Below, piece by piece: positions 2,733-24,212 of a stretch of DNA of 24,665 nt. The translations under genes and the position numbers were made by a program. The notes below the pieces were generated by a model that was given only the letters and a program-made list of their open reading frames with translations, did not search any database and was not told the DNA's origin. This DNA comes from a virus: IMG/VR virus record IMGVR_UViG_3300003894_000026, positions 1 to 24,665 of that record. One strand, 5' to 3'. The first letter of the stretch is position 1. The number at the start of each line of letters is the position of its first letter.

Positions 2733-3443
2733 GTGGCAGCAACTAATTTTACAGTTTTACAGCTTATGAACAAGGTGATGAATCGCCTACGCGAAGCTGA
2801 GTTCAGTACCGCTACGGAGAGTGACTACTCCAAGCTAATCCTTGGGTTCCTCAATGACTCCAAAAGAGTAGTAGAAGATTCGCATAATTGGGACGCTTTG
2901 CGAGATACTATATCGATTACTACGGCAGCAGGTACTTCTACCTATAGCGTAAAAAATGCAGGCACCAGTCAATATACGCATGATCGCACTCGTATCCTCC
3001 GGGTCTATGATCAAACGAATGAAACGTATCTCATGAAAACCTCATGGAATAACATCGATTCGTGGCAGAAATACGCATCAGGTACGACCCAAGCTAATCC
3101 GGGGTTTTGGGCACCAGCTGGATTTGATAGCAATAAAGATATTCAGATTATATTGCATCAGATTCCCGCCGGCACTTACACTCTTGATGTAGATGTCTAC
3201 AATCCAGAAGAGGATAAAACATCCGGCAGCCAAACTATCTTGGTTCCTTGGGAACCTGTAATGCTCCATACTCTAGCCCTTGCTATTGAGGAACGCGGCG
3301 AGGATGCAGGAGCGCAGTCTAATATAATCTTTCAAAGGTATGAAAAATCTATTGCTGAAGCTATAGCCTACGAGCAGACACAGCAGAATCGGGGCGGTAA
3401 TAATGAAGTTACGGATTGGCACGTTGAGAGTTGCGGCTGGTAA
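2733..3443 (+). CDS. Head-tail adaptor / tail tubular protein A-like
   Basis: This encodes 236 residues from a GTG start, with TAGGAG at 2721-2726 seven bases upstream. The N-terminus is helical (L-M-N-K-V-M-N-R-L-R-E-A), followed by a W-D-A-L-R segment and beta-rich middle. Near residue 170 is V-P-W-E-P-V, then L-A-L-A-I-E-E-R-G-E-D, a helix pattern typical of the adaptor proteins that attach under the portal (T7 gp11, P22 gp4 type). Position right after the coat gene fits. It should form a ring joining portal to tail tube. The stop overlaps the next start (TAATG at 3441-3445), suggesting coupled translation. The codons for V-P-W-E-P form a 15-base palindrome related to the dispersed repeat. 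Confidence 0.72.
   Translation: MAATNFTVLQLMNKVMNRLREAEFSTATESDYSKLILGFLNDSKRVVEDSHNWDALRDTISITTAAGTSTYSVKNAGTSQYTHDRTRILRVYDQTNETYLMKTSWNNIDSWQKYASGTTQANPGFWAPAGFDSNKDIQIILHQIPAGTYTLDVDVYNPEEDKTSGSQTILVPWEPVMLHTLALAIEERGEDAGAQSNIIFQRYEKSIAEAIAYEQTQQNRGGNNEVTDWHVESCGW
3242..3256. repeat. Dispersed palindrome, copy 1 (short loop)
   Basis: GGTTCC-TTG-GGAACC: 6-bp arms with a 3-base centre inside the adaptor gene. The encoded V-P-W-E-P lies in what looks like a conserved adaptor motif, so this copy may be a coincidence of protein constraint and codon choice. Confidence 0.5.
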
Positions 3444-4999
3444 TGGCTACTGCACTTCAAACGATTACGGTTCGTGCCCCCGGTTTAAGAGGGTTACAGA
3501 CGGAAAATAGTACGTCTGTACTGGACCCCTCGGCTGCGCGGACAGCTAGGAATTTAGTGTTTGATAAGACCGGGCGTATTCAAGCACGTAAAGGAAAATC
3601 TGTACTTACTTCGTCAGCCCTAACGGGAACACCTGTTATAGAATCAATGCACATGCTTGATACTTCAGGAGGCAATAAATTAATTTTTGGTGCCCAAGTA
3701 AGTAGTACAAATAAAATATATGAATCAGCTAGTCCTTTTTCTTCTAACACAGACGTAACAGGATCGCTTAGTCCGACTGGTAATAATTGGCAGTTTCAAA
3801 ACTTTAACGATAAGACTATCGCCGCACAGGGCGGCAACACCATGATAGTTAAGACGCATGGTGGAGCTAGTTTCGCAGCTATTTCAGCGGCGTCGGGTAC
3901 GGTTCCTACGGGAAACTGTGTTCATTCGGCTTTTGGTAGACTATGGGCGCAGAAGGTTCCGGCAGGTTCAACAGACCAAGCAGTAGTGGCCTACTCCGCA
4001 CTGCTCGATGAGACGCACTGGAGTACAGGCGCAGGCGAAATCAATGCTCTAGGCACAGCTAGTGCCGTAGCTGCGGGTTACGATGAGATGATGGGCATTA
4101 GTTCTATTAGTGGGTTTCTTGTGGTGTTTTTTAAGAACAGCATAGTTATATACGGGAAACCTGAAGATCCCACTAACATGACAATCAATCGAGTTATTCA
4201 AGGTGTCGGTTTACTAGAGCGAGATAGTGTCCAGCAAATAGGCGACGACCTTGTATTCTTAACTAGAGTAGGAGTTCGTTCTCTTAAACAAACAATACGC
4301 TCGGATGATAATACAGAACTACATGACCTTAGTGCGACGGTCAGAAGCGATTTACTAAATGATGTTTCTACTTCTGACACGCCTATTAAAAGTGCTTGGT
4401 ATCCCGATGAAGCCCTATATTTGCTTAAAGCAGATAGTAATATTTGGGTTATGGATATGCACCAATTTAGAGAGCAGACTACAACAGAACTGCTAGATCC
4501 TACTCGATATAGATGGACAGTTTTCCCTAGTACGGGGTGGGATAATTTTGCGTATCATGAGGGTACTCTTTATATTGGTGATGCTGGAGCACTGGCTAAG
4601 TATGACGGCTATCAAGATGCAGGAGCTTCATATACGTGCGAGTGGATGTCGATGTATTTTGATTACGACTCTACACAAACTAAGTTTTTAAAAAATTTAA
4701 AGGCTTTAGTTGAAGGCGCATATAATCAACAATTCACATTTAAATGGTCTTTTGATTTTGACAAAGCCTCTGGAACAGCGGTCAAAGGTATTCCTAGCTC
4801 GGGCACTGTAGCAGAGTACGGATCTGCTGAGTACGGAATAGCAGAATGGTCTGGTGGATTTTCTATCAATATTTTAAGGGTGCATGGTAGTCGGTCGGGT
4901 CAGTTCGTAAGTTTTGGCTTTAGCTGTGTAATTAATGGGTCGGCTGCATCTATGGAAGAAATAGCAATCTCTATGAAAATAGGACGGGAGACTCGGTAA
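3443..4999 (+). CDS. Tail tubular protein B-like / tail nozzle protein
   Basis: This encodes 518 residues from the ATG at 3443, which overlaps the previous stop as TAATG. A TTG twelve bases upstream is in frame but less likely. The protein is almost entirely beta strands: repeated short segments such as S-G-F-L-V-V-F-F-K-N-S-I-V-I-Y-G, then D-D-L-V-F-L-T-R-V-G-V-R-S-L, and A-L-Y-L-L-K with W-V-M-D-M. These look like blades of a beta-propeller, as in the nozzle proteins of short-tailed phages (T7 gp12, P22 gp10 type). It would form the hexameric tip of the tail through which DNA leaves. The order adaptor-nozzle-fibre supports this. Codon 153-158 holds a one-mismatch copy of the dispersed palindrome. 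Confidence 0.7.
   Translation: MATALQTITVRAPGLRGLQTENSTSVLDPSAARTARNLVFDKTGRIQARKGKSVLTSSALTGTPVIESMHMLDTSGGNKLIFGAQVSSTNKIYESASPFSSNTDVTGSLSPTGNNWQFQNFNDKTIAAQGGNTMIVKTHGGASFAAISAASGTVPTGNCVHSAFGRLWAQKVPAGSTDQAVVAYSALLDETHWSTGAGEINALGTASAVAAGYDEMMGISSISGFLVVFFKNSIVIYGKPEDPTNMTINRVIQGVGLLERDSVQQIGDDLVFLTRVGVRSLKQTIRSDDNTELHDLSATVRSDLLNDVSTSDTPIKSAWYPDEALYLLKADSNIWVMDMHQFREQTTTELLDPTRYRWTVFPSTGWDNFAYHEGTLYIGDAGALAKYDGYQDAGASYTCEWMSMYFDYDSTQTKFLKNLKALVEGAYNQQFTFKWSFDFDKASGTAVKGIPSSGTVAEYGSAEYGIAEWSGGFSINILRVHGSRSGQFVSFGFSCVINGSAASMEEIAISMKIGRETR
3901..3916. repeat. Dispersed palindrome, copy 2 (one mismatch)
   Basis: GGTTCC-TACG-GGAAAC, differing from the perfect form by one base in the right arm. 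It lies inside the tail nozzle gene and is read as V-P-T-G-N, the same frame as the two copies in the DNA polymerase gene. Confidence 0.5.
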
Positions 5000-6411
5000 T
5001 GAGTAACTATAGTAAGACTACTAACTTTACAGCTAAGGACTCTTTAAGTTCTGGCGATGCTAATAAAATAGTAAAGGGAGCAGAGCACGATACAGAGTAC
5101 GACGCTATCGAGACGGCTGTAAATTCTAAACTAGATGCTTATAGCGGAGCAACGGATTTATCCTCCGCCGCCGACGCCGACGTTTTCTCTATTTATGATA
5201 CTGACGCGGGTGCGTATAAAAAAATTACGTCAGCTAATTTTAAAGCAGGTATATCTACAGCGGCTGACGACATAACTACGGGTGACGCTGCGGTTACGAT
5301 TGCCACATCAACTGGAAATATCACGGTAGATGCTCAAGGCGACGATACTGACATTATTTTTAAAGGGACAGATGGCGGCGTTGACACTACGTTTTTAACT
5401 CTTGACGGTAGCGCGGCTGGTCGGGCAATTTTTAACGATGAAATTAGAACAGGAGATGGCTCTGCTTCTAGTCCTGCCTATCACTTTACAAGCGACCCTG
5501 ATACAGGAATGTTTTTGAACCACGGGGGTGCTATAGGTTTTGCGACTTCAGGTACTGAACGGTTTTCTATAGACGGTACAAGAGTTGGTGTCGATAGTCT
5601 TACTCCCGCATATACTTTTGAAGTTGGCGATCCAAATATTACCGCCACCTCCCCTACGGGTAACGAAGGTCATGGGTTTACAGCAGGAGGAAATTACTAT
5701 TGCTCTTCTGACCACTCTAGCCACATGGTATGGAACGATTGTTCTGCCAGTGCCGGTACTCACAATTATGTGATTTTTAGATATCGTGGCAGCACCATTG
5801 GCGACATAGACACAACAAATAATTCGACAATTCGATACAACACGTTCACCGGCGCTCACTGGAGTCAGTTTGAAGACGGCGCACAGCCAGAATTAAAACT
5901 TGGAACGGTCTTATCTACCGTTGATGAACTCATGGAGTGGACTCATTACAGATACACCGAATCACTGGAGGGCGAAGGCACCAGACAAGAACATGAAAAC
6001 ACAGTAAAAATTGCGGGCACTCATTCGTTATCAGAAACTAAAGAAATTTCAACTAATGAAGACGGAGAGACAGCCGTTGGCACGCCGACAAAACATGAAA
6101 CAGCCGAGCGTTTGCCGAAGTGCGAAGTCTCTAGTACAGCCGCCGATACGTGCGTTTACGGAGTTTTTGCGGGGCATTACGAAGACGGTGATAGTTCGGT
6201 AGAAGCGCTAGGTGCCGGAATTATTTTGATTGCTCAAGGAACTACCGTGAGTCGAGGAGATTTGTTAGAGAGTGCAGGGGATGGGACGGCTAGGCCACAA
6301 TCGGATACGACAATAAAAAGTTCTACTATCGCTAAAGTAACAAGTACCGTCAAAGTTAAAGAGTACGATGACGGTAGTTACTGCGTTCCTTGTACGTTGA
6401 TGTGCGGATGA
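4999..6411 (+). CDS. Tail fibre protein
   Basis: This encodes 470 residues; its ATG overlaps the previous stop (TAATG) and GGGAG lies just upstream. Residues 1-100 form a probable virion-attachment region. The middle has fibre repeats rich in Thr, Gly and Asp, such as N-I-T-V-D-A-Q-G-D-D-T-D-I-I-F-K-G and F-T-S-D-P-D-T-G-M-F followed by I-G-F-A-T-S-G-T-E-R-F-S-I-D, a pattern found in many marine phage fibres. From about residue 280 the C-terminal module (F-T-G-A-H-W-S, then V-Y-G-V-F-A-G-H-Y, G-D-L-L-E-S-A-G-D-G-T-A and a V-P-C-T-L end) resembles C-terminal trimerisation or self-cleaving chaperone modules of fibres. Receptor binding is the expected role. The stop overlaps the next ATG (ATGA). 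Confidence 0.78.
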   Translation: MSNYSKTTNFTAKDSLSSGDANKIVKGAEHDTEYDAIETAVNSKLDAYSGATDLSSAADADVFSIYDTDAGAYKKITSANFKAGISTAADDITTGDAAVTIATSTGNITVDAQGDDTDIIFKGTDGGVDTTFLTLDGSAAGRAIFNDEIRTGDGSASSPAYHFTSDPDTGMFLNHGGAIGFATSGTERFSIDGTRVGVDSLTPAYTFEVGDPNITATSPTGNEGHGFTAGGNYYCSSDHSSHMVWNDCSASAGTHNYVIFRYRGSTIGDIDTTNNSTIRYNTFTGAHWSQFEDGAQPELKLGTVLSTVDELMEWTHYRYTESLEGEGTRQEHENTVKIAGTHSLSETKEISTNEDGETAVGTPTKHETAERLPKCEVSSTAADTCVYGVFAGHYEDGDSSVEALGAGIILIAQGTTVSRGDLLESAGDGTARPQSDTTIKSSTIAKVTSTVKVKEYDDGSYCVPCTLMCG

Positions 6412-6656
6412 GACTAGAGCTTCTAGTGTGGAAAGACTGCGTAAGTTATCACGCAGGATGGACACATTGGCCTGAGTCAGATGGGCTTGCAGTGTTTTAT
6501 ACAGTAGGTTGGGTAACAGAAGAGAACGATGAGTATCTAACTATATACTCTAGTATTAGTGCAACAGATGATATTTTCGGACACGATACGGTTATTCCGA
6601 TGGATAATATTTTGCAGCGAGTACCGCTACAGGGAGAAATAAATTGGCTTATGTAG
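6408..6656 (+). CDS. Small phage protein of unknown function
   Basis: This encodes 82 residues from the ATG at 6408, which shares ATGA with the fibre stop. An in-frame ATG at 6390 is possible but would lengthen the overlap. The sequence has V-W-K-D-C near the start, a G-W-T-H-W-P segment, then V-G-W-V-T-E-E-N-D-E-Y-L-T-I-Y and V-I-P-M-D-N-I near the end. 'VGW-acidic-beta strand ... IP...I' is a layout I recognise from small proteins in many tailed phages; their role is unknown to me. It is probably a small beta-barrel-like soluble protein. Its last 13 bases overlap the next gene. Confidence 0.72.
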   Translation: MRLELLVWKDCVSYHAGWTHWPESDGLAVFYTVGWVTEENDEYLTIYSSISATDDIFGHDTVIPMDNILQRVPLQGEINWLM

Positions 6657-8515
6657 GGCCAGCACAGTACGGGTTTTCTAATACGATGCCGCGCAACATC
6701 TTGCCGACTGCACCTCGCATACCTAGTCTTGGAGTCGATGCGCTGTACGCGGTTCGAGGACAGCCCGGAGCAGCCTCTAATTATTATAAGTTTAGTACGG
6801 ACCCTAACTCCCCATACAATATTTTTGGTAATAGATACCTTGGAAAACTGCAAGCAGACTGGGCAAAAGGCATTACGTCCGGTGGCAATAAGCAGATACA
6901 TAAAATACTGACTGGTCTTGGCACAAGTAAAACGGGCAGTAAGCAGGGTTTTGTAAAGCGAAATCCTAACGTCGGCAAACTATTTGCTCAGTATTTTAGA
7001 ACTGGAGTAGTTCCGCGCGGACTAACTCCAGACTTAGCAAGACACGCATACGACTATGCCCTTCGAGCTACAGGCCGAGACGCTGTAATGGATCGGCAGG
7101 GATCGTTTTTTGGGAACCTAGTAAAAGGAAACCTCGGGGCAATAGCGGGAACAGCGCTAGGGGTTGCGGTTCCCGGTCTTGGGATGGCACTTGGCGGCGC
7201 ACTTGGTGGGGCTATTCAGGGCGGTGTAAGCGGCGGACTCAAGGGGGCAGCCCTCGGAGGTCTGGGCGGTTACGGTCTAGGTAGTGGCGCAAGTTGGTTA
7301 GCAGGCAAGGCTGGCACTTTAGCTGGTAACGCCGCTCAAAGTTTAGGAGCACATAAACTCGGGGCAGCTATTTCTCCTAAAGTAACTAACCTTAATGCTC
7401 TTTTAGCTAAGAACGCCCCGGCAAATTCTTTCTTTAATTCACCTTCGTTTGCGGCTCGTACCAGTACAGGAATGGCAGCGGGTCACGCAGCAGCAGTGAA
7501 AGCGGCAGCAAAAAGAGTTGCCGCAGGAAACGCAGTACCGGGAGCGCGTACTGGCATTAATACGGCACTGCCGCAGCATGGCGGTGGCTTGTCGCCAGTT
7601 AGCGCAGCAAGTCAAAAAGGATTAGGTAAAGCAGTTATCGATAGCGCAGCAACACGCGCAGCATTAAAAACAGGAGCGAGTAAAATGGCAACATGGCCTT
7701 GGTTAACCAATGTAACATCGGGAGTGAAAGATTTTGCAAAGGCGGCAAAGCCTTTTGTACAGGGCGCTAATACAATCCTTGACGCGGCTAAATTCGGCAC
7801 TGCCGCTTACAACTATTTTAATCCGGTAACAGGTAAGAGTCAAATGGACGACTTGACTAATAGGATAGCGGGACTCTATGGTGATCCGAGCGAGCAGCTA
7901 CAGCCTTACAATGTAACTACTCCTTTGTCTCAGATACAGTTTGAGAATCAGAATGTCAATGTCAACCCGAGCACTGGGGCTATGCAGACCTTCGATCAGT
8001 ACATGGACATGCTGCAAAAGACCGGTAGGGCGGCTAGTAATGTGGATCTAAGAGGTTTAAGCGCTTCGTTCTACGACCAACTTAATGCACTCACAGCACA
8101 GCAAGAAGCTGAAGAGCTTGATCGTGTGGAGTCTGTACTATTTGATCGTCAGGGTATACATACTGGAACAGGAAGACAAGTTGCTGACTTTCGAAAAAGG
8201 ATTGATGATGCTAGACAAGCCCGGCAGTTCGACGCTATTAATGCTGCTCTAGACTATCAAGGCCGGCTGTATAACCAGTTCAATCAGTTGGCTGGCGGTG
8301 TAACTGATTTCAATACTGGAATATTCAATCCTTTCGCACAGGTTGGCGGATCGCTCGGCGCAATGGATACGACAGCATCTCAAAATGCTGCCCAATCCTT
8401 AACAGATATATATGATAAACAAGCAGCGCAGGCTTACTTGGATGATAGACAAGAGAGAGACTATCTTAACGATGCTCTACTCTTTGGAGCAGACTTTCTT
8501 GGAGGGTTAGCATAA
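6644..8515 (+). CDS. Internal virion (ejection) protein with glycine-zipper segment
   Basis: This encodes 623 residues from a TTG start, supported by AGGGAG at 6631-6636 seven bases upstream; no ATG in this frame lies nearby. Residues 162-229 are a long Gly/Ala-rich hydrophobic stretch (for example G-M-A-L-G-G-A-L-G-G-A-I), a glycine-zipper pattern that can insert into membranes. The C-terminal half (from about 410) is polar, helical and Gln/Asp-rich. It is the first of three large proteins placed after the fibre gene, like the T7 internal core proteins gp14-gp16. These are stored in the capsid and ejected to build a channel across the cell envelope. The specific role of this one is inferred. 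The stop overlaps the next start (TAATG). Confidence 0.65.
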   Translation: MAYVGPAQYGFSNTMPRNILPTAPRIPSLGVDALYAVRGQPGAASNYYKFSTDPNSPYNIFGNRYLGKLQADWAKGITSGGNKQIHKILTGLGTSKTGSKQGFVKRNPNVGKLFAQYFRTGVVPRGLTPDLARHAYDYALRATGRDAVMDRQGSFFGNLVKGNLGAIAGTALGVAVPGLGMALGGALGGAIQGGVSGGLKGAALGGLGGYGLGSGASWLAGKAGTLAGNAAQSLGAHKLGAAISPKVTNLNALLAKNAPANSFFNSPSFAARTSTGMAAGHAAAVKAAAKRVAAGNAVPGARTGINTALPQHGGGLSPVSAASQKGLGKAVIDSAATRAALKTGASKMATWPWLTNVTSGVKDFAKAAKPFVQGANTILDAAKFGTAAYNYFNPVTGKSQMDDLTNRIAGLYGDPSEQLQPYNVTTPLSQIQFENQNVNVNPSTGAMQTFDQYMDMLQKTGRAASNVDLRGLSASFYDQLNALTAQQEAEELDRVESVLFDRQGIHTGTGRQVADFRKRIDDARQARQFDAINAALDYQGRLYNQFNQLAGGVTDFNTGIFNPFAQVGGSLGAMDTTASQNAAQSLTDIYDKQAAQAYLDDRQERDYLNDALLFGADFLGGLA

Positions 8516-10467
8516 TGGCTGAAGATTGGGCAGGATTAATGCGAGGCTTGGCTCAGCATAGCTGGGATCAAAGTCGTCCTAGATACACTCAAACTACTGG
8601 TGCTGGCTCTGCGCTACTAAACGCTATCTCTACGGACATGTCGAGGGATACTCCCTTTGCAACTCTGTCTAAACATAATTTACGAGGTAGTAGAATAGGC
8701 GCACTACGACAAGCAAGGCAGGAAGGACTCGACCCGATGCAGGGTGAAAAGTACTACGAGCGTATGTTCCAACTTCTTCAGGAAGCAGGAGACTATGACG
8801 GAGCGAGCCGTGCGTACAAACGTAGTGTAGCAGCTAGAGCAGAGCATGATCAGAGGCTGGCGTCTGAGGGAGCAAGACCCTTGATAGGTGAAGCAGCAGC
8901 GGCGGAAATGAAGACAAAAATTCAGAACCTGCCTGAAGCTGTGCATAGGCGAGAGATAGAACTAGAGAAAGAAAAGGCGCGACACGCCGCAGAAAGCTAC
9001 ACGGCGCGCGGAGGAACTAGTACGGGAGGTACTGGGTCAGGCAGAGATCCCAAGGAGGTAGGAGGTATATCGCCGGCTGATAGAACTACAGCTGCGCGAG
9101 ATATAGCCTCAACAATTGTAGCTGCTGAGGCAGGTGATCAGAACGCACAAAATTATTTGAACACACTGTACGCACAACATCCCAGTTTGAAAGACAGCAT
9201 TGAAAGTAGCCGTGAGTACTGGTTTGGGCTTGGCGGCCTAGAGATGACTGATGTTTTCGATACTCTAGAGAAAGACCCTCGTGCGTTTGGCGCAATTGAT
9301 TCCCGTGCTAGGCAGACTCTGGAGTTTACAAAGACATTCCCAAACATGATGCCTGAAAAACGGCAACGATTACTACAGGAATTAAATCAAGGATACACTC
9401 CTATTAGGCATCCCGAGCATGGAGAAGTGTACCAAGACAGGAGAACTAATGAGCTTTATCGTCTGTCTCCCGGTGGCGAGATCCAGAAAATAGTAGGGGC
9501 AATGGGCGACCCAAGTGCGGTTCCCTCAGGAACCGACGCATCGGTAGTTGAACCGTCTGTAATGACAAGGCGTGGACGAAATCGAGGGTCGATAGCTACA
9601 GTGCAATCGATGGAGGAGGCTTTAGGTTTTGAGAGCGACGAGGGTGCAGAAGCGGCTATGGATATCCTTAGTCCGGTTTTTCAACTTATGCAACCAGCGG
9701 GAGAAAGCATAATACAAAACCCTCAGCAGACGCCAGAAAGTCCAATAGTACCCGACGCTACTAAAGTAGTCGATAAAATATCAAAGCCGCCTGCGCGACC
9801 GATCCCAGAACAAAAGGCCGCGCTCACCGCAGCGAAAGCGCGAACAGAAAAATGGGAGGGACCGAGGCGCTTTATTTATCCCGGCCCTAATGGACACTGG
9901 ACTATAGGTGTTGGACATCTAGTGTTGGAAACAAAAAAAGGTGCGTCACTGGAAGACAGACTCTTACAACTTCGCGGAGTAGTGGGTGGCCGAGCAGATG
10001 GGCACCCTTTTCATGGTATTGCCGTCTATGACTCTGGCGAGATAGACAAGCAGGGTAATCCTCTTGGGGATGAATTGATAGGCGGCAAGTTCTTAAGCAA
10101 AACGCAGATGTCAGATATGTTCGATAGAGACTGGAACTCTCATGCTAAAAGAGCGCAGGCATCTATGAAAGGGACAAAAGGAGTAGCGAAAGACTTTTAT
10201 TGGGACAAACTGACTCCAGAATTAAAGTACGCTATTACTGACGCGACATTCCGTGGAGCTTGGGCACCGAGCAAATCCCCGAATACAATAAGAAAGCTGA
10301 AACAAGCTCTAATAGACCCATCCTATAGGAAATTTAAAGAGGCAGCTGATGAGTGGCTTAATCATGGGGAATACCTTCGATACAAAAACGCAGGTATAGA
10401 TAACTCTATTACAGAGCGCATGGAACTTGTCGCTGATGAGATAATGAATGTGTGGCACAGGGCATAA
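8515..10467 (+). CDS. Internal virion protein with C-terminal T4-lysozyme-like domain
   Basis: This encodes 650 residues; GGAGG lies nine bases before its ATG, which overlaps the previous stop. Residues 1-400 are polar and helical without a recognised fold. A Pro-rich linker (about 400-440) leads to a GH24 (phage lysozyme) domain. K-W-E448-G-P-R-R then Y-P-G457-P-N-G-H-W-T463-I-G-V-G-H aligns without gaps to T4 lysozyme residues 11-31, matching catalytic Glu11 and Thr26 but with Gly where T4 has Asp20. Further matches: F-L-S-K-T-Q-M-S-D-M-F near 540 and F-R-G-A-W-A-P-S near 583. The domain is 60-70 residues longer than T4 lysozyme because of an insert around 490-530. Such virion-borne hydrolases open the peptidoglycan locally during DNA entry. 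Confidence 0.78.
   Translation: MAEDWAGLMRGLAQHSWDQSRPRYTQTTGAGSALLNAISTDMSRDTPFATLSKHNLRGSRIGALRQARQEGLDPMQGEKYYERMFQLLQEAGDYDGASRAYKRSVAARAEHDQRLASEGARPLIGEAAAAEMKTKIQNLPEAVHRREIELEKEKARHAAESYTARGGTSTGGTGSGRDPKEVGGISPADRTTAARDIASTIVAAEAGDQNAQNYLNTLYAQHPSLKDSIESSREYWFGLGGLEMTDVFDTLEKDPRAFGAIDSRARQTLEFTKTFPNMMPEKRQRLLQELNQGYTPIRHPEHGEVYQDRRTNELYRLSPGGEIQKIVGAMGDPSAVPSGTDASVVEPSVMTRRGRNRGSIATVQSMEEALGFESDEGAEAAMDILSPVFQLMQPAGESIIQNPQQTPESPIVPDATKVVDKISKPPARPIPEQKAALTAAKARTEKWEGPRRFIYPGPNGHWTIGVGHLVLETKKGASLEDRLLQLRGVVGGRADGHPFHGIAVYDSGEIDKQGNPLGDELIGGKFLSKTQMSDMFDRDWNSHAKRAQASMKGTKGVAKDFYWDKLTPELKYAITDATFRGAWAPSKSPNTIRKLKQALIDPSYRKFKEAADEWLNHGEYLRYKNAGIDNSITERMELVADEIMNVWHRA
9518..9535. repeat. 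Dispersed palindrome, copy 3
   Basis: CGGTTCC-CTCA-GGAACCG, a perfect 7-bp stem with a 4-base loop, in the linker part of the lysozyme-bearing virion protein. It is read as V-P-S-G-T. Confidence 0.75.
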
Positions 10468-10469
10468 CG

Positions 10470-14480: not shown

Positions 14481-14489
14481 GGGAATACA

Positions 14490-14753: not shown

Positions 14754-15018
14754 CATGATTACAGACCAAGATGCAGAAAAGATTGCGAACGCTGTAGCCA
14801 AAATTACGGACGTTCCTATGAGCGCGGACGAATCTGCCATGCACCAAGACCATCACTCTTGGATTACTAGGCAGATAGAGAAAGAGCGTCGGTCAGCTGA
14901 GAGGTGGGAGAAGGCGAGGCACACGGCAGTAGGTGCGCTGGTTATAGGTGCGCTATCTTGCTTAGCGGCACTAGGAGAGTGGGCTTGGTCTATTTTTTCT
15001 AAAGGTTTGTCGAACTAA
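14743..15018 (+). CDS. Small membrane protein with C-terminal anchor, holin candidate
   Basis: This encodes 91 residues; AAGGTAAGG precedes the ATG, which overlaps the previous gene by 11 bases. Residues 1-58 are polar, with H-H-S-W-I-T-R-Q-I-E-K-E-R-R leading to a basic run. Residues 61-84 form the only membrane segment (T-A-V-G-A-L-V-I-G-A-L-S-C-L-A-A-L-G) followed by W-A-W. The 'W-I-x-x-x-I-E-x-E-R-R ... one C-terminal TM' plan is frequent in small phage proteins labelled putative holins. It is the last gene of the plus-strand transcript, just ahead of the terminators. The two adjacent membrane proteins may work as a pair, for example as holin and modulator, but that is inference. Confidence 0.6.
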   Translation: MANNMITDQDAEKIANAVAKITDVPMSADESAMHQDHHSWITRQIEKERRSAERWEKARHTAVGALVIGALSCLAALGEWAWSIFSKGLSN

Positions 15019-15043
15019 AAAAACTGGTTCCCGCAGGAACCAG
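15017..15043 (-). terminator. Intrinsic terminator of the minus-strand transcript (repeat copy 4)
   Basis: Read on the minus strand, CTGGTTCC-TGCG-GGAACCAG (15043-15024) is a perfect 8-bp stem followed directly by seven T residues (15023-15017), a textbook intrinsic terminator. The core is the same palindrome found dispersed in many genes, extended by two base pairs. It lies directly after the plus-strand holin candidate and 43 bases beyond the end of the last minus-strand gene. Confidence 0.88.
15024..15043. repeat. Dispersed palindrome, copy 4 (extended to 8-bp arms)
   Basis: This is the GGTTCC-CGCA-GGAACC core flanked by CT and AG, which lengthen the stem. It is the only copy outside a coding region and the only one beside a T run in the right position to terminate transcription. 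Confidence 0.85.
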
Positions 15044-15060
15044 ATAACATACTCTCCATT

Positions 15061-15087
15061 GGGGCTGCTTAGTGCAGCCTCTTTTTT
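15061..15087 (+). terminator. Intrinsic terminator of the plus-strand late transcript
   Basis: The arms GGGGCTGC (15061-15068) and GCAGCCTC (15074-15081) pair over 8 bp with one G-U wobble and a 5-base loop, followed by six T residues (15082-15087). It ends the structural transcript. Its T run also contributes to the stop codon of the last minus-strand gene (TAA at 15088-15086). Confidence 0.88.
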
Positions 15088-16377: not shown

Positions 16378-16380
16378 AGC

Positions 16381-16598: not shown

Positions 16599-16780
16599 TT
16601 ATCTGGTACTCCTATCATAATTGCCATGTCCATGAACCATTGCCTGTCAGTAGGCAGCGGCTCTTTACCTGCTGCTATGTTGAGGAGCATGTTTTCAGCC
16701 CGAACGGTACGGAGGAACCTTTGCCTCATTACGTTCCACTCCGCTTCGTAGTCTATACTAGAGTTCACAGGCACCCCCAT
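16595..16780 (-). CDS. Small unknown protein after the ribonucleotide reductase
   Basis: This encodes 61 residues from an ATG that overlaps the end of the reductase gene by 23 bases but lacks a clear ribosome binding site. An internal ATG at 16729 has GGAG nine bases upstream and would give a 44-residue protein (M-R-Q-R-F-L-R-T-V-R...), a credible alternative start. The C-terminal part P-T-D-R-Q-W-F-M-D-M-A-I-M-I-G-V-P-D-K looks like a small helical module. No function recognised. The stop overlaps the next start (ATGA). Confidence 0.55.
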   Translation of the reverse strand: MGVPVNSSIDYEAEWNVMRQRFLRTVRAENMLLNIAAGKEPLPTDRQWFMDMAIMIGVPDK

Positions 16781-18701
16781 GACAGGCTAGTTCAGGTTGT
16801 ACGGATGTAGTATCTTCGTTCTCAAACTCTGCCAGCGCAGACCAGTCAGTGCCTTTAGGCATAGCCTTCAGCAGCTGCTTGTACTTAGCCTCAGTAATCT
16901 CCTCATAAGGAGCCTGAGTGTACACATGGTCATCGCCGGAAGGTAGGAAGCTGACGCCTGACATTTCATCGAAGTTTTCCCAGACGTAACTCATGACATT
17001 GGGAAACTCGTTGTCTTTATAGTAGACCGTGATGCTAGGCTTGTGCTCACAGTACGCTTCGTTGTACATGCGCCACAACTCCAGCTGGTCAATAGCTGTC
17101 TGGTCATGCCTAGTGACTGCACCTTTAGGCGAAGCTACCGGAAAGCTAAAGACTGTAGCATAGGGGTTAGTTGCGCTAGGTTCCTGCGGGAACCCGGCGT
17201 TCTTCATGAACTCGCATAGAGGGTCTTTGTTATCAGCTACGACTCGCCGAATGTAGTATTCAGAGTATCGAGGATGGATACCGGAGCCTGTGTTGCACAG
17301 CTGCGACACCGTGCCGCTAGGTTTAACGCAGGTAGTAGCAACTGATTGGGGAATGTCGAGGGTCTTAGCCCACTTACGATTCTCAGACACGGATACTTTC
17401 CGCAGGGTGGTGAGCAACTCCATTAAGTTGTCATCTCGGACAATGCTACGATGATGCCTGCCGAGTACCTTGTGATCCATAATGCCGGTCAAGGAGACGC
17501 CAAGTAGTCTCTCCTCTTCGCAGTTGGCTTTCCACTCCGGGCCTAGCACTTTGTTAAACTTGGTCAGAGTAGACTGTAGCGTGCCTAGAAAGGTAGCCAG
17601 TCGCACCTTGCGAATAAGGTCTGAATCAGTGTCACCTGCTCGCACCACAACCTCGGTTAGATTACAGAACTCTTGAGGTCGGAGGATAATCTCTGAGCAG
17701 GGGTTCGTACCGAAGTTATGATGGGGGTCGCGCCGACTGGGGCATGAGTTCTTTGCGGCCTCTCTTGAGAAGATGCCGCGCTCTCCGGCTCGACTTTCGT
17801 ACAAGGAGTTCATCTCTCGGAGGTAGCTATCGACATCCGGCTTGGTAGTGTAGGCCACTGAGTTATTAGCCAAGGCTCGAAAGGGTGTGCCACCCTCCGT
17901 TTCAGGACGCCACCATTCTCCCGACTTAGCGTGGCGCATACGGTCATCAGTCAGGTTGCTCAAGGAGATGAGCGCACTGCGGCGTACCCCTCCGACTACC
18001 ACGATGTCCGCAATCTTGCAGACCAAATCGTGTACCTCAATGGAAGTCAGGCGTCTGCCTGCTGCCGCCTTGAATACTTCGACCGTGTACTGGAACAGAC
18101 TGTTCAACGGCTCCGGCCCTGATGCTCGGCCACCCATAGTTTTAAGGCGAGCGCCGTATGGACGTATCTGAGTCAAGTCCCATACAGGCGTGACACCACT
18201 GTAGAGAGCATCGATTATAGCTAGGTAGGAGGTAGCCCACCCCACCTTGTTGTCAGGCACTACAATAGTCACCCTGCCTGAGAACTTATCCGGAATGGCT
18301 GGTAACTTTTCAACTTCATCACGCTCGACGCTAAAGCCCATGCCGGTGCCGCACATTAGGATGTACAAAATCTCACTGAACCTGCGAGGACTGTCGATAG
18401 GAGTGTACGCGCAGTTGTAGCCAGCTACGTGGTGCTCGTGTAGAGCTTTACCTGCTGACATTAGTACGCGCATAGAACCCATAATCTCGTGGTTGCGCAC
18501 AGCGTCCATCGCTTCTTTCAACTTAGTGCGGACAGCCGTACCCTCTACTCCGTTCTTATCTAGGTGCTCTTCCCAAAATTCATGCACCCTGTCGATGGCC
18601 TCGTCCCAAGTCTCTCGTCGTCCAAGGTCATCGCGATATCGGGCATAGCGACTCGTGAATATGTAGTTCTGATATTCACTCATCTTCGGGTTGGTACTCA
18701 T
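16758..18701 (-). CDS. nrdJ: Class II (adenosylcobalamin-dependent) ribonucleoside-triphosphate reductase
   Basis: This encodes 647 residues from the ATG at 18701 (AAGGAAAG upstream); a GTG 48 bases earlier has no such support. It makes deoxynucleotides for phage replication. C97 (in Y-N-C-A-Y) and C346 (in F-C-N-L-T-E) match the active-site disulfide pair. N-P-C335-S-E337-I carries the radical cysteine and Glu, with the 11-residue C335-C346 spacing of the Lactobacillus leichmannii enzyme (C408-C419). The C-terminal C640-H-G-G-A-C645 is the shuttle pair reduced by thioredoxin. Length and the single subunit fit the monomeric B12-dependent type; no small radical subunit is present in the window. 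The host must therefore supply or import cobalamin. Dispersed palindrome copy 5 lies within, at G-F-P-Q-E-P. Confidence 0.93.
   Translation of the reverse strand: MSTNPKMSEYQNYIFTSRYARYRDDLGRRETWDEAIDRVHEFWEEHLDKNGVEGTAVRTKLKEAMDAVRNHEIMGSMRVLMSAGKALHEHHVAGYNCAYTPIDSPRRFSEILYILMCGTGMGFSVERDEVEKLPAIPDKFSGRVTIVVPDNKVGWATSYLAIIDALYSGVTPVWDLTQIRPYGARLKTMGGRASGPEPLNSLFQYTVEVFKAAAGRRLTSIEVHDLVCKIADIVVVGGVRRSALISLSNLTDDRMRHAKSGEWWRPETEGGTPFRALANNSVAYTTKPDVDSYLREMNSLYESRAGERGIFSREAAKNSCPSRRDPHHNFGTNPCSEIILRPQEFCNLTEVVVRAGDTDSDLIRKVRLATFLGTLQSTLTKFNKVLGPEWKANCEEERLLGVSLTGIMDHKVLGRHHRSIVRDDNLMELLTTLRKVSVSENRKWAKTLDIPQSVATTCVKPSGTVSQLCNTGSGIHPRYSEYYIRRVVADNKDPLCEFMKNAGFPQEPSATNPYATVFSFPVASPKGAVTRHDQTAIDQLELWRMYNEAYCEHKPSITVYYKDNEFPNVMSYVWENFDEMSGVSFLPSGDDHVYTQAPYEEITEAKYKQLLKAMPKGTDWSALAEFENEDTTSVQPELACHGGACEL
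17179..17194. repeat. Dispersed palindrome, copy 5
   Basis: GGTTCC-TGCG-GGAACC, a perfect 6-bp stem with a 4-base loop, in the reductase gene. On the coding strand it is read as F-P-Q-E-P, a frame used by no other copy. Confidence 0.8.
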
Positions 18702-18828
18702 ATTTTCTTTCCTTCTTCCTGTTATATTTGCGCTTGTCGGAAACGACACGCTGTTTGTATTTGGGGGTTCGTACGTCTTTTGCTACCCAGTTCCTGCGGG
18801 AACCTCGTACCTCATGCTTGTCATTCAT
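18676..18828 (-). CDS. Very small, highly basic protein before the reductase
   Basis: This encodes 50 residues; GAGGAG lies four bases before the ATG at 18828. About 40 per cent of residues are Lys or Arg. The middle reads R-T-P-K-Y-K-Q-R-V-V-S-D-K-R-K-Y-N-R-K, which loosely recalls the ribosome rescue factor ArfA (L-F-R-Q-R-V-x-K-x-K-K-G-K-G-S-Y-x-R-K), although the Gly-Lys-Gly part is absent. An RNA-, ribosome- or DNA-binding role is likely from charge; the ArfA link is speculative. It overlaps the 55-residue gene before it (8 bases) and the reductase after it (26 bases). Palindrome copy 6 forms codons 9-13 (G-S-R-R-N). Confidence 0.65.
   Translation of the reverse strand: MNDKHEVRGSRRNWVAKDVRTPKYKQRVVSDKRKYNRKKERKYEYQPEDE
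18789..18804. repeat. Dispersed palindrome, copy 6 (5-bp arms)
   Basis: AGTTCC-TGCG-GGAACC; the outermost pair is lost (A opposite C), leaving GTTCC/GGAAC. It lies in the small basic gene and is read as G-S-R-R-N on the minus strand. Confidence 0.75.
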
Positions 18829-19755: not shown

Positions 19756-19766
19756 GATTAATCCCG

Positions 19767-20048
19767 CTAGAACGGAGGCTCGTCTACTAGAGCCGTGTAA
19801 ATACTGTCGTCGTCGTTTCTGCGCTGGTTCTTTTCCTCCTCCTCAACCGCTTTCAACTCCTGTGCGATAAGGAACTCTATGTAGTGCTGAGCTTTGCGTA
19901 AGTCTTCCATCCCTCCCTTCTTGCGCCAGCGGACAATGTATTTTATTACATTGCCTTCGCAGTAGCCTATATCGTTATCTAAGATAAAGTCGATAGGCTG
20001 TGCAGCCATTGACCGGTAGTGTTCCGGTCCTACTGTGCGAGTGTCCAT
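19767..20048 (-). CDS. DUF3310 family protein
   Basis: This encodes 93 residues; AAGGAG lies eight bases before the ATG, inside the end of the previous gene. The family pattern is clear: P-E-H10-Y, then E31-G-N-V-I-K-Y-I-V-R-W-R-K-K-G-G, then E48-D-L-R-K-A-Q-H-Y-I. The family is widespread in phage nucleotide and replication modules and sometimes described as nucleotide-kinase-like, but no biochemical role is established. The tail after residue 70 is acidic and polar. Placement between the endonuclease and phosphoesterase genes agrees with a replication-associated job. Confidence 0.87.
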   Translation of the reverse strand: MDTRTVGPEHYRSMAAQPIDFILDNDIGYCEGNVIKYIVRWRKKGGMEDLRKAQHYIEFLIAQELKAVEEEEKNQRRNDDDSIYTALVDEPPF

Positions 20049-20627
20049 CTATGCTTCTCCTTCTAAGTTCCCACGGGAACCGTATGGCTCAGGGTCTATA
20101 CCGAACTCCCCATGATGGTAAGGGAACAGTACAGCTTCCCATGCTACAGGGAATTGATTGGTTGCGTGAGCATCTTCAAACCAATGCTCAGGCATCTCTT
20201 TAATAGCGTGTCTTCCTACAAATGTAAAGTCAAACCCATGAGCAGAAAGCCAGTCGCTATTCATAGGGTATCTCTTGAGTCCTGTCTGTCGGTCATTCTC
20301 CATAACCAGCTTTAAGTCTAGCTCTGGATGGTATTCCTGTATAGAAATTAGCTTGCTACGCTCGGTAGAAGTTAGCCGGCCTTTTACTTCAATCAGAGTA
20401 CCATTAGGCAGTATAAAGTCTGGAGTGTACGTCCGCTTCTTGAGCACGGGAGAGGTAGCGCCGCAGTTCGGACAGGTCATTTTCCATGTCTGCTGTTGGT
20501 AGTACGCAAATTTTATCTCTTCGTACTTCCACTTAATGCCTTCCTCCTTGAAGTAGTCGGCTACTCTCCGCTCAAAGATAGAGCGAAACCTACCCCTACG
20601 ATGTTTTGTGTTGTATTTTCTAGACAT
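20049..20627 (-). CDS. T7 endonuclease I-like Holliday junction resolvase
   Basis: This encodes 192 residues, longer than T7 gp3 (149). F-R-S-I-F-E19-R-R-V-A near the start, then T-P-D70-F-I-L-P-N-G-T-L-I-E80-V-K82-G-R and R90-S-K match the PD-(D/E)xK core of endonuclease I, which resolves branched DNA and helps degrade host DNA. A C-P-N-C pair (52-55) precedes the PD motif, half of a zinc ribbon. The region after about residue 115 is not typical of T7 gp3. The ATG overlaps the exonuclease stop by 8 bases and has only a weak ribosome binding site, so translation is probably coupled. Palindrome copy 7 encodes G-S-R-G-N just before the C-terminus. Confidence 0.85.
   Translation of the reverse strand: MSRKYNTKHRRGRFRSIFERRVADYFKEEGIKWKYEEIKFAYYQQQTWKMTCPNCGATSPVLKKRTYTPDFILPNGTLIEVKGRLTSTERSKLISIQEYHPELDLKLVMENDRQTGLKRYPMNSDWLSAHGFDFTFVGRHAIKEMPEHWFEDAHATNQFPVAWEAVLFPYHHGEFGIDPEPYGSRGNLEGEA
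20066..20081. repeat. Dispersed palindrome, copy 7
   Basis: AGTTCC-CACG-GGAACC; GTTCCC and GGGAAC pair around a 2-base centre, and the outermost pair is lost. It lies in the last codons of the endonuclease gene, read as G-S-R-G-N, close to the ribosome binding site of the DUF3310 gene. Confidence 0.78.
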
Positions 20628-21528
20628 GATCTGTCTCGATTACAAAGGGACAGGCATCCGGAACCGTGCGCCATATCCACAGAAGGTCACAGTTCTTGTT
20701 GTAGGTCGCCGGAGGTATTCCCGCAGAGAAGTATTCTCGTTTGACTACCTCCATCATCTCCTCCGGGTCACTTACAGAATCTAACAGTTTTGCTGCGGTC
20801 TTCTCGCCTATTCCTTTTACCCCGGTCACGTTGTCAGCGGTGTCTCCAATCAGCATCTGCTTGAAAAACAGACGGTATCCCTCAATCTCGGACACTACGC
20901 TATGCTCCTCTTTGACAAAGTTGTAGTGATTACCCGGCAACTGTTTAACGTCCTTGTCGTAGCTAACAAAGACGACAGTAGCATCAGACCCGAATTTTTT
21001 CAAGGCGTCATGCCCAGCCCTGCCTAGCATGTCGTCAGCCTCATACCCCTGCGTAATTAGGCAACGCTTGTGCTTCTTGGCATACTCAATCACAGCAGGT
21101 AAATGGGCGGGTTTGGCTACGCCGTGTCTGTTCGCTTTGTATTCTGGATACATAGCTTCTCGAAAGTTCTGCTCCTCATCGCACCCGGTAAATACTAGGT
21201 ACAATCGTAACGGTCGGTTCTCCCCGTACTTTGCGAAACAAGCGTCTTGAATTTTCTCAATCATGATATCGAATGTGGATAAAACATTTTCAATGTCATC
21301 CACTTCAATGTGTGCTTTCTGTACTTCCTCCTTTGGCGGGAGTGCATCCGGCATGTAGCCTTTGACGTACGCTACCGCCTCTTTGTGACTATCAAAGATC
21401 TTCATAGGGTCGGAGGCAAGGGTATACCTTTGCTTCTGCCCTGCTGCTGCTACTCGATGAGCTACTATGTCTCCATCGATAAGCAGAATAAGAGGGCTTT
21501 CGCCCTCCTGTTCTGGTCGTAGTTGCAT
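20620..21528 (-). CDS. 5'-3' exonuclease (FEN/T7 gp6-like)
   Basis: This encodes 302 residues; the ATG overlaps the previous stop (TAATG) with GAGG seven bases upstream. Metal-binding acids of the FEN/PIN-like fold are visible: L-I-D18-G-D20, Y-E163-A-D165-D166-M-L, S-Y-D191-K-D193. The helix-three-turn-helix follows as L-I-G-D229-T-A-D232-N-V-T-G-V-K-G-I-G-E-K-T-A. The enzyme removes nucleotides from 5' ends, clearing RNA primers and degrading host DNA. T7 gp6 is similar in length (300). Together with the polymerase, endonuclease and OB-fold protein it completes a T7-like replication and recombination set. Confidence 0.9.
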   Translation of the reverse strand: MQLRPEQEGESPLILLIDGDIVAHRVAAAGQKQRYTLASDPMKIFDSHKEAVAYVKGYMPDALPPKEEVQKAHIEVDDIENVLSTFDIMIEKIQDACFAKYGENRPLRLYLVFTGCDEEQNFREAMYPEYKANRHGVAKPAHLPAVIEYAKKHKRCLITQGYEADDMLGRAGHDALKKFGSDATVVFVSYDKDVKQLPGNHYNFVKEEHSVVSEIEGYRLFFKQMLIGDTADNVTGVKGIGEKTAAKLLDSVSDPEEMMEVVKREYFSAGIPPATYNKNCDLLWIWRTVPDACPFVIETDHV

Positions 21529-22097
21529 TATGACGCCTCGCTGTCCAACACGTTCGGCTCACTCCACTGGTCTTCTTCGGGAGGAATAACGGGAGCTGCT
21601 TGGGCGGCAGCGTTCGGACCCGTGAAGTCGGGGTCCATTGCCATCCACCGAGCAAAGTCCTCGCCAAGTTCCATAGTCAGAGCGATAGCGGTCTGGATGT
21701 CCTCCGCAACTGGAAGCTCCAGCTTCGGGTCAGCAGAGAGACTTCGTTCCAAGATAGCGGGGAAGAGCATTTTAGCTGCGACCTGTCGAGTAATCGAAAG
21801 GTCTTTCTTGCTCGGGCCACCGCTGGCGAAGTTGCCTGCTACCACCTTCGGCTCTGGGTTCCCAGAGGAACCTGCCGATATCAGACCCACCCTGCCTTGG
21901 ATGTTGTTGTAGACGCGCTCGCCACTCTGCTTCGTCTTGTAGGAAAAAGAAACTACTGCGCCCTTTCCAACATTTTCCGGCATGTTGCTTTCGTCGAACA
22001 CCGAGTACCACTGGTCCGTCTCTTCCAAAAGAAATCGCTTACCATCCTTGCTCATCACTTTGACGGTGCCCTGCTGTACGTTCTTTTCTATGCTCAT
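21528..22097 (-). CDS. Putative single-stranded DNA-binding protein (OB-fold)
   Basis: This encodes 189 residues and is the first gene after the promoter at 22118-22155; AAGGAG lies seven bases before its ATG. Residues 8-72 look like an OB barrel: G-T-V-K-V-M, then K-R-F-L-L-E, Q-W-Y-S-V-F-D, G-A-V-V-S-F-S-Y and Y-N-N-I-Q-G-R-V-G-L. A Gly/Ser linker (76-95) leads to a helical region (S-I-T-R-Q-V-A-A-K-M) and then an Asp/Glu-rich tail (about 174-189), as SSBs use to contact partner proteins. Its place directly upstream of the exonuclease supports an SSB or recombination role. The fold is inferred from pattern; no SSB family signature is certain. Palindrome copy 8 encodes part of the linker (G-S-S-G-N). 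Confidence 0.6.
   Translation of the reverse strand: MSIEKNVQQGTVKVMSKDGKRFLLEETDQWYSVFDESNMPENVGKGAVVSFSYKTKQSGERVYNNIQGRVGLISAGSSGNPEPKVVAGNFASGGPSKKDLSITRQVAAKMLFPAILERSLSADPKLELPVAEDIQTAIALTMELGEDFARWMAMDPDFTGPNAAAQAAPVIPPEEDQWSEPNVLDSEAS
21857..21872. repeat. Dispersed palindrome, copy 8
   Basis: GGTTCC-CAGA-GGAACC, a perfect 6-bp stem with a 4-base loop, in the linker of the OB-fold protein, read as G-S-S-G-N on the minus strand. Confidence 0.8.
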
Positions 22098-22117
22098 CTA
22101 GAGTCTCCTTCAACTTA

Positions 22118-22155
22118 GTGCTAATAGTATAGCACGGTTTAATGTGGCAGGTCAA
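22118..22155 (-). promoter_or_regulatory. Sigma70-like promoter with palindromic -10 region
   Basis: On the minus strand TTGACC (22155-22150) and TATACT (22131-22126) are separated by 18 bases, a good match to a bacterial sigma70 promoter. The -35 box overlaps the polymerase stop codon. The -10 box lies inside the inverted repeat GTGCTA-TACTAT-TAGCAC (22135-22118), which could be an operator or a hairpin at the 5' end of the transcript. It would drive the block from the OB-fold gene through the reductase to the endolysin. Confidence 0.65.
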
Positions 22156-24212
22156 GCACTTTCCATGTAGTGCTTAGACCATGCCGATCCAACTTCCGCA
22201 ACACAAGGAAATTCGACAGGAGTAACAAGATTAAATTCTTGCTTGATTCGCGAGGGCACATTCTCCATGATTGCCTTTGCCGTCGCTAAGCCTATCTCGT
22301 AGTCCGTTGCCGGAATTTTAAAAAGCACACTGTCATGCACGGTATTGACTGGAATGATATGGTCCGGCAAATTCTGCCGCAGTGCAACGAGAGTGCTATT
22401 CATGATGTCCGCCGCTGCACCCTGAATCGGATAATTTTTAGCGGTGGTTGGTTTAAAGTTTGTTTGCTTTCCTCCTCTGTACTTGTTGTCCCATACTGTC
22501 TCGACCATACCAAAACCGCCGATGTGCCGGTGAGTACTGGCTAGGTCGCGCTGTCCGTTGAAAGCCCACACGCTAGGCAGCACACTGTACCTAACGGGCG
22601 TGTTGTCTGCTACATCGCCACGATGTCCAGCAAAGCGGTCTAGATTTTCCAGCAGCTTCTCATGGTAGTACTTGACTGCCGGGAATTCCTCGTAGTACTC
22701 GTCAATAAATCGCTGAACGAGGTCGAGAGGTTGGTCCCACTGCTTCGCGATTCCTTTAGCGGACGCGCCGTACTGTAGTTGAAAGCTGAAAGCCTTCGCC
22801 AGCTTGCGCTCGTTGTCGGTCACATCATCCTCGCTCTTGTTGTAGAGTCGAGATGCGAACATCCTGTGCATATCAACGCCGTTGTTAATGTACTGAATCA
22901 GATTGGCGTCGTTGCTTGCCAGTGCCAAGACTCGTACCTCCAGCGAGGAGTAATCAATCTCCGCATACTGGTAATTTTTGTCAGTGACAAACACATCTTT
23001 TGGAAAGATAATGGTGCCATCACTCAAGGTGTCAGACACGTTGCTGAGGTTCTGAAGGTTGGGTCTTGAAGATGCAAGGCGCTTTGTGGCTGTGCGCGAA
23101 TGAGAATAATTCCCGTGGATTTTTCCGTCCGGATAGATGTGGGCCTCAATACCATCGATGTAGGTGCTGATAGACTTGTTGAGGTTTCGCAGCTTGAGAA
23201 GGGGCTTGAAGAACCAGTCGAATTCCGGAAACCTTTTGCTCAGCTTTTTCAACTCAGCTGCACCTGTGGTTCGGTCAGTGCTGCTGCCACCAATCATGCC
23301 CATTATCTGCTGGGACCGCTGCTCTCGCTTATGTTTAGGCTCACCCTTACGCGCTCCGGTCTTGTAATAGGTTCCCGTGGGAACATAAACATCATAAGTA
23401 AAGTCTCCACCATATAGCAGGGTAGAAACTTTCGAGGGAGAGTTCATCCAGTTTTCGCCTAGCCAATCCAGAGCGATGTCATTATACCTTTTGGTGTCTC
23501 GCATCGCAGCGTTAAGTTCTTCTTTGGTTTTGTCAATCTCCTCCTGATATCGGTGTCGCATATCCTCTAGCTTTTTGCGAGAAACCAACAGACCTTCCCG
23601 GTGCATCTCCGCAGTTGTCAGTGATGCAGTCATCTGGTTAATCATGTACCGAGCCGTCGTGCAAAAAGTATCTCCGCAGGTAGTACGAAGGCTTTCGAGC
23701 TGGTTCCTGAACAGCAGCTCTGTAAATTCCAAGTCATCTGTCAGGTACTCGATGGCGAGGGTCGGGTGGATGTAGTCGATGCCGTAGCCGTGCTTAAACA
23801 TCTCAGAAATATACTGGCTGTTCGGACTAGACTTCGCATTGACGAGTGAGTCCAGTGACAGGGAGGTACTGGCTCCATGCAAGTCGCGGGTGTACTGGCT
23901 CATCATGAGGTACTCGGCCAGCATCGTGTCCCACAAAAAGAAATCGTATCCGTACAGGTAGGAACGGAGATGCGACCAGTCGAAGGCGAAGTTATGTCCG
24001 ACAATCAGCTTGCCTTCGAGGGGCAAGTGATAAATCTCCTCGCGCCTGTAGAATTTTGTTGTCGATTCCTTCAGCGTTCCAACAAGCAGCGGTGTTGCGT
24101 CCGGGTGTGCGCAGTCAGCACCGAACAGTTTGGTTCCCGTGGGAACCTTGCCGATGCTAGTCTCAATGTCGATAACCAGATAGTTATCGAGAAGTGTGCT
24201 TACGCTTTCCAC
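22152..24212 (-). CDS. Family A DNA polymerase with 3'-5' exonuclease domain
   Basis: This encodes 686 residues from a GTG start with AAGGAG eight bases upstream; the start overlaps the helicase gene by 13 bases. The proofreading domain has V-I-D15-I-E17 (Exo I), V-G-H-N74-F-A-F-D78 (Exo II) and Y156-x3-D160 (Exo III). The polymerase domain has motif A E-I-D420-Y-S-S-L-E-V-R, motif B R469-x3-K473-x3-F477-x3-Y481-G and motif C V-H626-D627-S. The residue equal to E. coli Pol I 762 is Phe (F477). Length and layout are close to T7 gp5 (704 residues). It copies the phage genome with the adjacent helicase. Two palindrome copies lie at V-P-T-G-T near residues 23-27 and 277-281. Confidence 0.95.
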   Translation of the reverse strand: MESVSTLLDNYLVIDIETSIGKVPTGTKLFGADCAHPDATPLLVGTLKESTTKFYRREEIYHLPLEGKLIVGHNFAFDWSHLRSYLYGYDFFLWDTMLAEYLMMSQYTRDLHGASTSLSLDSLVNAKSSPNSQYISEMFKHGYGIDYIHPTLAIEYLTDDLEFTELLFRNQLESLRTTCGDTFCTTARYMINQMTASLTTAEMHREGLLVSRKKLEDMRHRYQEEIDKTKEELNAAMRDTKRYNDIALDWLGENWMNSPSKVSTLLYGGDFTYDVYVPTGTYYKTGARKGEPKHKREQRSQQIMGMIGGSSTDRTTGAAELKKLSKRFPEFDWFFKPLLKLRNLNKSISTYIDGIEAHIYPDGKIHGNYSHSRTATKRLASSRPNLQNLSNVSDTLSDGTIIFPKDVFVTDKNYQYAEIDYSSLEVRVLALASNDANLIQYINNGVDMHRMFASRLYNKSEDDVTDNERKLAKAFSFQLQYGASAKGIAKQWDQPLDLVQRFIDEYYEEFPAVKYYHEKLLENLDRFAGHRGDVADNTPVRYSVLPSVWAFNGQRDLASTHRHIGGFGMVETVWDNKYRGGKQTNFKPTTAKNYPIQGAAADIMNSTLVALRQNLPDHIIPVNTVHDSVLFKIPATDYEIGLATAKAIMENVPSRIKQEFNLVTPVEFPCVAEVGSAWSKHYMESA
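23370..23385. repeat. Dispersed palindrome, copy 9
   Basis: GGTTCC-CGTG-GGAACA; GTTCCC and GGGAAC pair around a 2-base centre, with the outermost pair lost. It lies in the DNA polymerase gene, between the exonuclease and polymerase domains, read as V-P-T-G-T. Confidence 0.78.
24132..24147. repeat. Dispersed palindrome, copy 10
   Basis: GGTTCC-CGTG-GGAACC, fully palindromic except for the GT centre (7-bp arms). It lies near the 5' end of the polymerase gene, just after the Exo I motif, and is read as V-P-T-G-T, the same five residues as copy 9. Confidence 0.82.

Follow-up and report, generated by a model that had tools for sequence, protein, structure and literature searches.

Systems that dock on DNA at many sites have been described in a small number of prophages, plasmids and chromosomes. 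Operators of the XRE/Cro type (434-like) are 14 bp long and their central bases are not contacted. The stoperators of cluster A mycobacteriophages (the sites of the L5 and Bxb1 repressors) are tens of short, dispersed protein-binding sites whose sets differ between relatives; they are 13 bp long, asymmetric, mainly intergenic, oriented with transcription and bound by the immunity repressor of the phage (PMC3029335, PMC6550527). KorB of plasmid RK2 is a long-range silencer of the ParB family whose short palindromic operators (OB) act at a distance on a small replicon (PMC11790492). The parS site TGTTTCACGTGAAACA and its Burkholderiales variants are 16-bp dyads with a central CG (PMC5450999), and the chromosomal parS of Pseudomonas aeruginosa is TGTTCCACGTGGAACM (PMC5098823). 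HIP1 of Cyanobacteria is a palindrome iterated inside genes (PMC4390886).

The stretch of DNA analysed here (the window) is a 24.7-kb fragment of an uncultured podovirus-like phage (lineage A). Its + strand carries structural genes up to 15.0 kb; beyond this point replication genes occupy the - strand and encode a ribonucleotide reductase (RNR), a phosphoesterase, a MazG-like protein, endonuclease I, an exonuclease, a 189-aa protein, DNA polymerase A and a DnaB-like helicase. The 189-aa gene (21528-22097), read as an OB fold in an earlier note on this DNA, matches only a PHROG of unknown function. A small conserved basic ORF (MNDKHEVRGSRRNWVAKDVRTPKYKQR..., around 18690-18828, - strand) lies between the phosphoesterase and RNR genes; it is also conserved in the related contig L349 and was overlooked with an 80-aa ORF cut-off.

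Eight exact copies of a 14-bp core, GTTCC-YNNR-GGAAC, are present in the window (Table 1). The earlier note had listed about ten copies of a unit GGTTCC-CRYR-GGAACC. The dispersed palindrome is real, but the unit had to be corrected to the shared core, whose centres include CTCA, CAGA and TGCG. Eight of the listed copies hold, six at the positions first given (17179, 18789, 20066, 21857, 23370 and 24132) and two after a shift (9518 to 9519 and 15024 to 15026). Single mismatches among the 12 arm bases occur in the copies listed at 18789, 20066, 23370 and 3901. The arms, said to stay paired, do so in part, the outermost pair being intact in five of the eight sites and broken in three. The two other candidates were rejected. 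The copy at 3242..3256 has a 3-nt gap and encodes VPWEP, that at 3901..3916 encodes VPTGN; relatives keep VPWxP and VPDGN with codons that form no palindrome (no 4-gap palindrome in the second case), and both copies are judged coincidental from these alignments.

Table 1. Core sites of the window and three genes that contain some of them
Feature	Position	Strand	Context
GGTTCC-CTCA-GGAACC	9519..9534	.	V-P-S-G-T in Pro-rich linker of virion/lysozyme-like gene 8515-10467
GGTTCC-CGCA-GGAACC	15026..15041	.	Intergenic, between convergent gene blocks
Core site	17179..17194	.	RNR gene, peptide GFPQEP
AGTTCC-TGCG-GGAACC	18789..18804	.	Small conserved basic ORF upstream of RNR
AGTTCC-CACG-GGAACC	20066..20081	.	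C-terminal tail of T7-like endonuclease I gene
GGTTCC-CAGA-GGAACC	21857..21872	.	Linker of 189-aa gene 21528-22097
GGTTCC-CGTG-GGAACA	23370..23385	.	DNA polymerase gene, codon 276, VPTGT
GGTTCC-CGTG-GGAACC	24132..24147	.	DNA polymerase gene, codon 22, VPTGT
B12-dependent ribonucleotide reductase	16758..18749	-	PHROG 367; one site
Phage endonuclease I, T7-like	20049..20627	-	Pfam PF05367; one site
DNA polymerase A family	22152..24212	-	PHROG 17; two sites

The claim that these palindromes exceed chance was borne out: exact GGTTCC-N0-8-GGAACC occurs six times in the window against 0.01 expected. GGTTCC-type half-sites are also in excess (26 against 8 expected), mostly due to the palindromes. In synonymous-codon shuffles that retained each protein and the per-strand codon usage, the core appeared on average 0.22 times without a constraint on its centre (maximum 2, 2000 shuffles) and 0.07 times with YNNR (maximum 2, 3000 shuffles), against six observed in coding sequence. 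Six of the eight sites are in genes of annotated size, one is in the small ORF and one (15026) is intergenic. They are read in three frames (VPxGT, GSxxN and FPQEP), and one of them is in a different frame at the same place in a relative (see below). Together with the codon-shuffle excess, this agrees with the earlier proposal that the constraint is on nucleic acid and not on protein. All sites but 9519 lie in the right 9.7 kb (right 40%, the replication half; seven of eight, P 0.007), and the distances between them, 2153, 1610, 1277, 1791, 1513 and 762 bp, are more even than random (P 0.006). Read on the - strand, site 15026 makes up the stem of a terminator-like hairpin with TTTTTTT after it, and is the only one of the eight with the stem and T run of an intrinsic terminator. 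The surrounding segment (15018-15086) is a convergent gene junction with two terminator-like hairpins, 15024-15043 on the - strand and 15061-15081 on the + strand.

The set resembles stoperators in that short sites are dispersed over a phage genome and change between relatives. Unlike the asymmetric stoperators, the core is palindromic (33 of 33 pooled cores are dyads, see below), and unlike these mainly intergenic sites it is found mostly inside genes, with no repressor found in the window, which covers little of the early region of phage A. The view proposed here also recalls KorB, whose short palindromic operators exert their effect remotely on a small replicon, but the half-site of OB is of the TTTAGC type (TTTAGCGGCTAAA) and that of the core is GTTCCY. 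By analogy, the set may work like stoperators or KorB sites, without the defining asymmetry and intergenic placement of the former or the half-site of the latter. The P. aeruginosa parS, likewise a 16-bp dyad, has the same GTTCC/GGAAC arms separated by the same 4 nt, and its outer base is similarly degenerate. Its centre, however, is ACGT in place of YNNR, and a central CG is nearly absent from the cores (1 of 33, and none in lineage A and the second phage group, B, described below). No ParB-family or HTH gene was found among the proteins of the 24.7-kb window, and no ParB/KorB-like gene among the window and group B proteins searched, the genome of phage A being incomplete. Without the central CG, and with no ParB among these proteins, the core was not classed as parS. 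HIP1 shares the iteration of a palindrome within genes, but the word described here is longer, gapped and present in far fewer copies, and no host iteration was found in 757 genomes.

Relatives of the window carry the same core. L349 (6.4 kb of the replication half, 67-76% nucleotide identity to the window) contains three exact cores and one copy with a 5-nt gap; three of these copies coincide with window sites and the fourth, at 2107, is not in the window. Site 18789 is conserved at L349 4986, where the outer base is restored. Site 20066 corresponds to L349 3255, at the same place at the endonuclease C-terminus in another reading frame, and site 21857 to L349 1509 (GGTTCC-CAACA-GGAACC), in the same linker with other residues and the 5-nt gap. 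L342, from the structural half, has one site of its own within a linker; the region of site 9519 cannot be aligned in this contig. The distant relatives L343, L345, L346 and L348 have essentially no sites, and no motif with a YNNR centre was found in the named relatives scanned (Pan3, Mwe-JY13, CHP58 and BPP-1). Dozens of homologues have GFPxEP or GIPxEP at the RNR site but lack the palindrome, which therefore arose by substitution and not by insertion.

A complete scan of viral contigs for GGTTCCCNNGGGAACC returned scattered singles and one further set of contigs, group B (L210, L211, L212 and L215-L221). These podovirus contigs of 60% GC are related to one another, and the two longest from the replication side contain 5-6 cores per 19-20 kb. 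Both they and the window lineage have family-A polymerases, and the two share at most a marginal tail-protein match. G802 (47.2 kb, 83% polymerase identity to group B) contains eight cores and G796, a weak carrier, three. Beyond L349 and L342, the core is thereby carried by a separate group. The non-carrier sisters G795, G798, G799 and G800 (63-69% polymerase identity) have none. Sister phages at 60-69% polymerase identity are without any site, so the system is acquired or lost as a whole.

Testing simply for conservation of orthologous arms between B and G802 failed, the sites not all being at the same base, and this failure revealed their turnover. Several sites are at the same base, some of them with another centre, and in three pairs the two sites are 70-150 bp apart. 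B and G802 each carry a single site in the exonuclease gene, at codon 304 or 341, 111 bp apart, and at the empty places of this pair the aligned sequence is of equal length. All three G802 copies without an orthologous B copy are within 150 bp of one (P about 3e-4, sites and test having been chosen after inspection). Because a copy is kept nearby in spite of such displacements, the conserved thing seems to be a site in a region and not a base position. Copies do move between relatives, a point raised in the earlier note, to the extent that frame, centre or exact place changes; the approximate place is largely kept and no clean insertion was found. Strains whose flanks are about 98% identical have exactly inverted centres, CACG against CGTG, at two group B loci (L210 9769 and L211 7922; L210 18036 and both L219 978 and L220 2679). 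Any of three processes would account for these inversions: template switching at palindromes, conversion from another copy, or a pair of successive substitutions. Recombination breakpoints at sites were also considered; they are sharp at two of nine loci, too few for a claim.

All 33 pooled cores, some of them homologous between relatives, have a Y..R centre, compared with 3 of 12 chance GGTTCCN4GGAACC sites in bacteria (preselected CACG/CGTG copies excluded). The inner Y and R (position 7) vary independently on each side: they are complementary in 23 cores against 22.7 expected under independence, and half of the A-lineage sites have C.A as this pair. In A and B the outer base is G, in G802 mostly T; its pairing excess is seen only on pooling, where it comes from this difference between lineages. 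Intragenic sites have exclusively GTTCC arms, the half-site being GTTCCY, and the spacing is 4 nt in accepted copies save for two 5-nt cases (L349 1509 and a hairpin of G802). Such a pattern would suit recognition of a duplex DNA dyad by two identical subunits better than selection of a stem for pairing.

We therefore lean, with moderate confidence, towards a reading in which a putative sequence-specific DNA-binding protein, probably a dimer, recognises each of the repeated copies and acts regionally. A binding site for a phage protein is also the reading of the earlier note that fits best. Two independent GTTCCY half-sites would form the 14-bp consensus, and a putative dimer, phage- or host-encoded, would dock roughly every 1-2 kb across the replication half. 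Once bound, it would act regionally, as a transcription roadblock or silencer (stoperator- or KorB-like) or as a genome-organising anchor, and not at single promoters. In the sequences compared, the core is invariant beyond codon effects, its 4-nt spacing is near-fixed, its Y..R is symmetric, a second group carries it, and positions turn over while the place is kept; from this we infer both double-stranded DNA binding by a protein and regional action. Several features do not sit easily with this reading. The placement of the sites is not like that of promoter operators, the 5-nt gaps of the L349 copy and the G802 hairpin are what a rigid dimer should not tolerate, and one window copy and one group B locus are terminator- or long-hairpin-like.

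Candidates for the binder come from the second group. An XRE/Cro-like protein, whose AlphaFold model is XRE-like with modest confidence, is encoded upstream of the B and G802 primases; it is present in B, G802 and G796 and absent in G795, G799, G798 and G800. The 14-bp dyad with a variable 4-bp centre is like XRE/Cro operators, and this XRE-fold protein is encoded in the B group, but its homologues also occur in at least three related phages without any site (G806, G807 and G809), which weakens it as the binder. A 103-aa protein of unknown family and fold (G802 4483-4791, L459) is present in all three B-clade carriers, and seven non-carriers related to them, two represented by partial contigs, gave no detectable copy, a distribution confounded by phylogeny. 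A 235-aa protein (37148-37852) is a further candidate that follows the sites in group B. Differential gene lists of this kind make the cognate protein testable. Between the upstream stop codon and the promoter region of the XRE/Cro-like gene before the primase there is a long hairpin with a changing outer stem and a GGTTCC/GGAACC apex (L210 4500, L211 13142, G802 around 38080); in G802 the HTH gene starts shortly after it, at 38157.

The main rival is an RNA or single-stranded DNA hairpin, in which the transcript would form a 6-bp stem and a short loop that serve in processing, stabilising, attenuating or protein binding. Though rather unlikely, it keeps real weight because copy 15026 doubles as a terminator stem and a 5-nt gap is found both in L349 1509 and in the B/G802 locus before the HTH gene, a long hairpin whose outer stem covaries and which has a G-U pair. 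Stable local folds (z -2.3 to -3.75) were obtained at four of the six sites tested, but the two others fold no better than shuffles, there is no Rfam match and a T tail follows only one window copy. Moreover, the arms are constant and not covarying at intragenic sites, the inner Y..R with its frequent C.A has no pairing excess, and the outer pair has one only on pooling. Hairpin selection, suggested in the earlier note, is possible but not favoured, even though one copy also serves as a terminator stem.

Binding by a dimer is also preferred to a mobile or self-spreading palindrome of the Rickettsia type lodged in tolerant linkers, or template switching or conversion between copies, which we regard as improbable. 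Many copies are indeed in linkers and tails, those of group B are nearly identical, and the two centre inversions occurred between closely similar strains. However, Rickettsia-type elements are in-frame insertions, whereas the alignable RNR and G802 exonuclease sites are equal-length replacements, GFPxEP being ancestral at RNR without insertion. The insertions anticipated by the earlier note were not seen, and no empty site of a clean insertion was found, wherever homologues align. The unit is only 14-16 bp without a coding partner, and its position is largely kept between relatives. We give similarly little credence to a host-derived iterated palindrome (HIP1-like) or a host uptake or segregation word that the phage took over. 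The presence of the same word in two largely unrelated phages would be accounted for by a common host, but counts are at chance level and without iteration in the sampled genomes of 274 Gammaproteobacteria, 289 Alphaproteobacteria and 194 Cyanobacteria, and there is no iteration among the genome-scan loci listed. Chance combined with peptide or codon bias (recurrent VPxGT and GSxGN turns) accounts for 3242 and 3901 and is in line with the ancestral RNR peptide and the recurrence of VPTGT, but it is already disfavoured and very improbable for the set given the peptide- and codon-count-preserving shuffles (0.07-0.22 against 6), the intergenic and other-frame copies and the same core in a second phage group.

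That largely unrelated phages have such a palindromic set in common, inside essential replication genes, points to a genome-wide DNA-binding function not recognised before. As a tentative proposal, distantly related podovirus-like phages might share an undescribed genome-wide system of intragenic palindromic sites, in which a putative dimer on evenly spaced sites would organise, segregate or silence the genome while sites turn over and local density is kept; a literature search for the palindrome sequence returned nothing relevant. Sites that coexist with coding sequence give a direct handle on selection, showing which peptides are bent to hold them and how sites move.

Other palindromes were observed in other phages. 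The unrelated contig L011 (record G787, 59.7 kb) contains 17 dispersed TGTCAC-N5-GTGACA, mostly TGTCACAC-S-GTGTGACA, for example at 3648, 7105, 7814, 10525, 11751, 12443 and 13609, at least some of them near ORF boundaries; they may represent a second, operator-like dispersed system. In L484-L486, a distant XRE homologue is accompanied by a probable operator set of TTAGC-N5-GCTAA palindromes, of which two lie immediately before its start.
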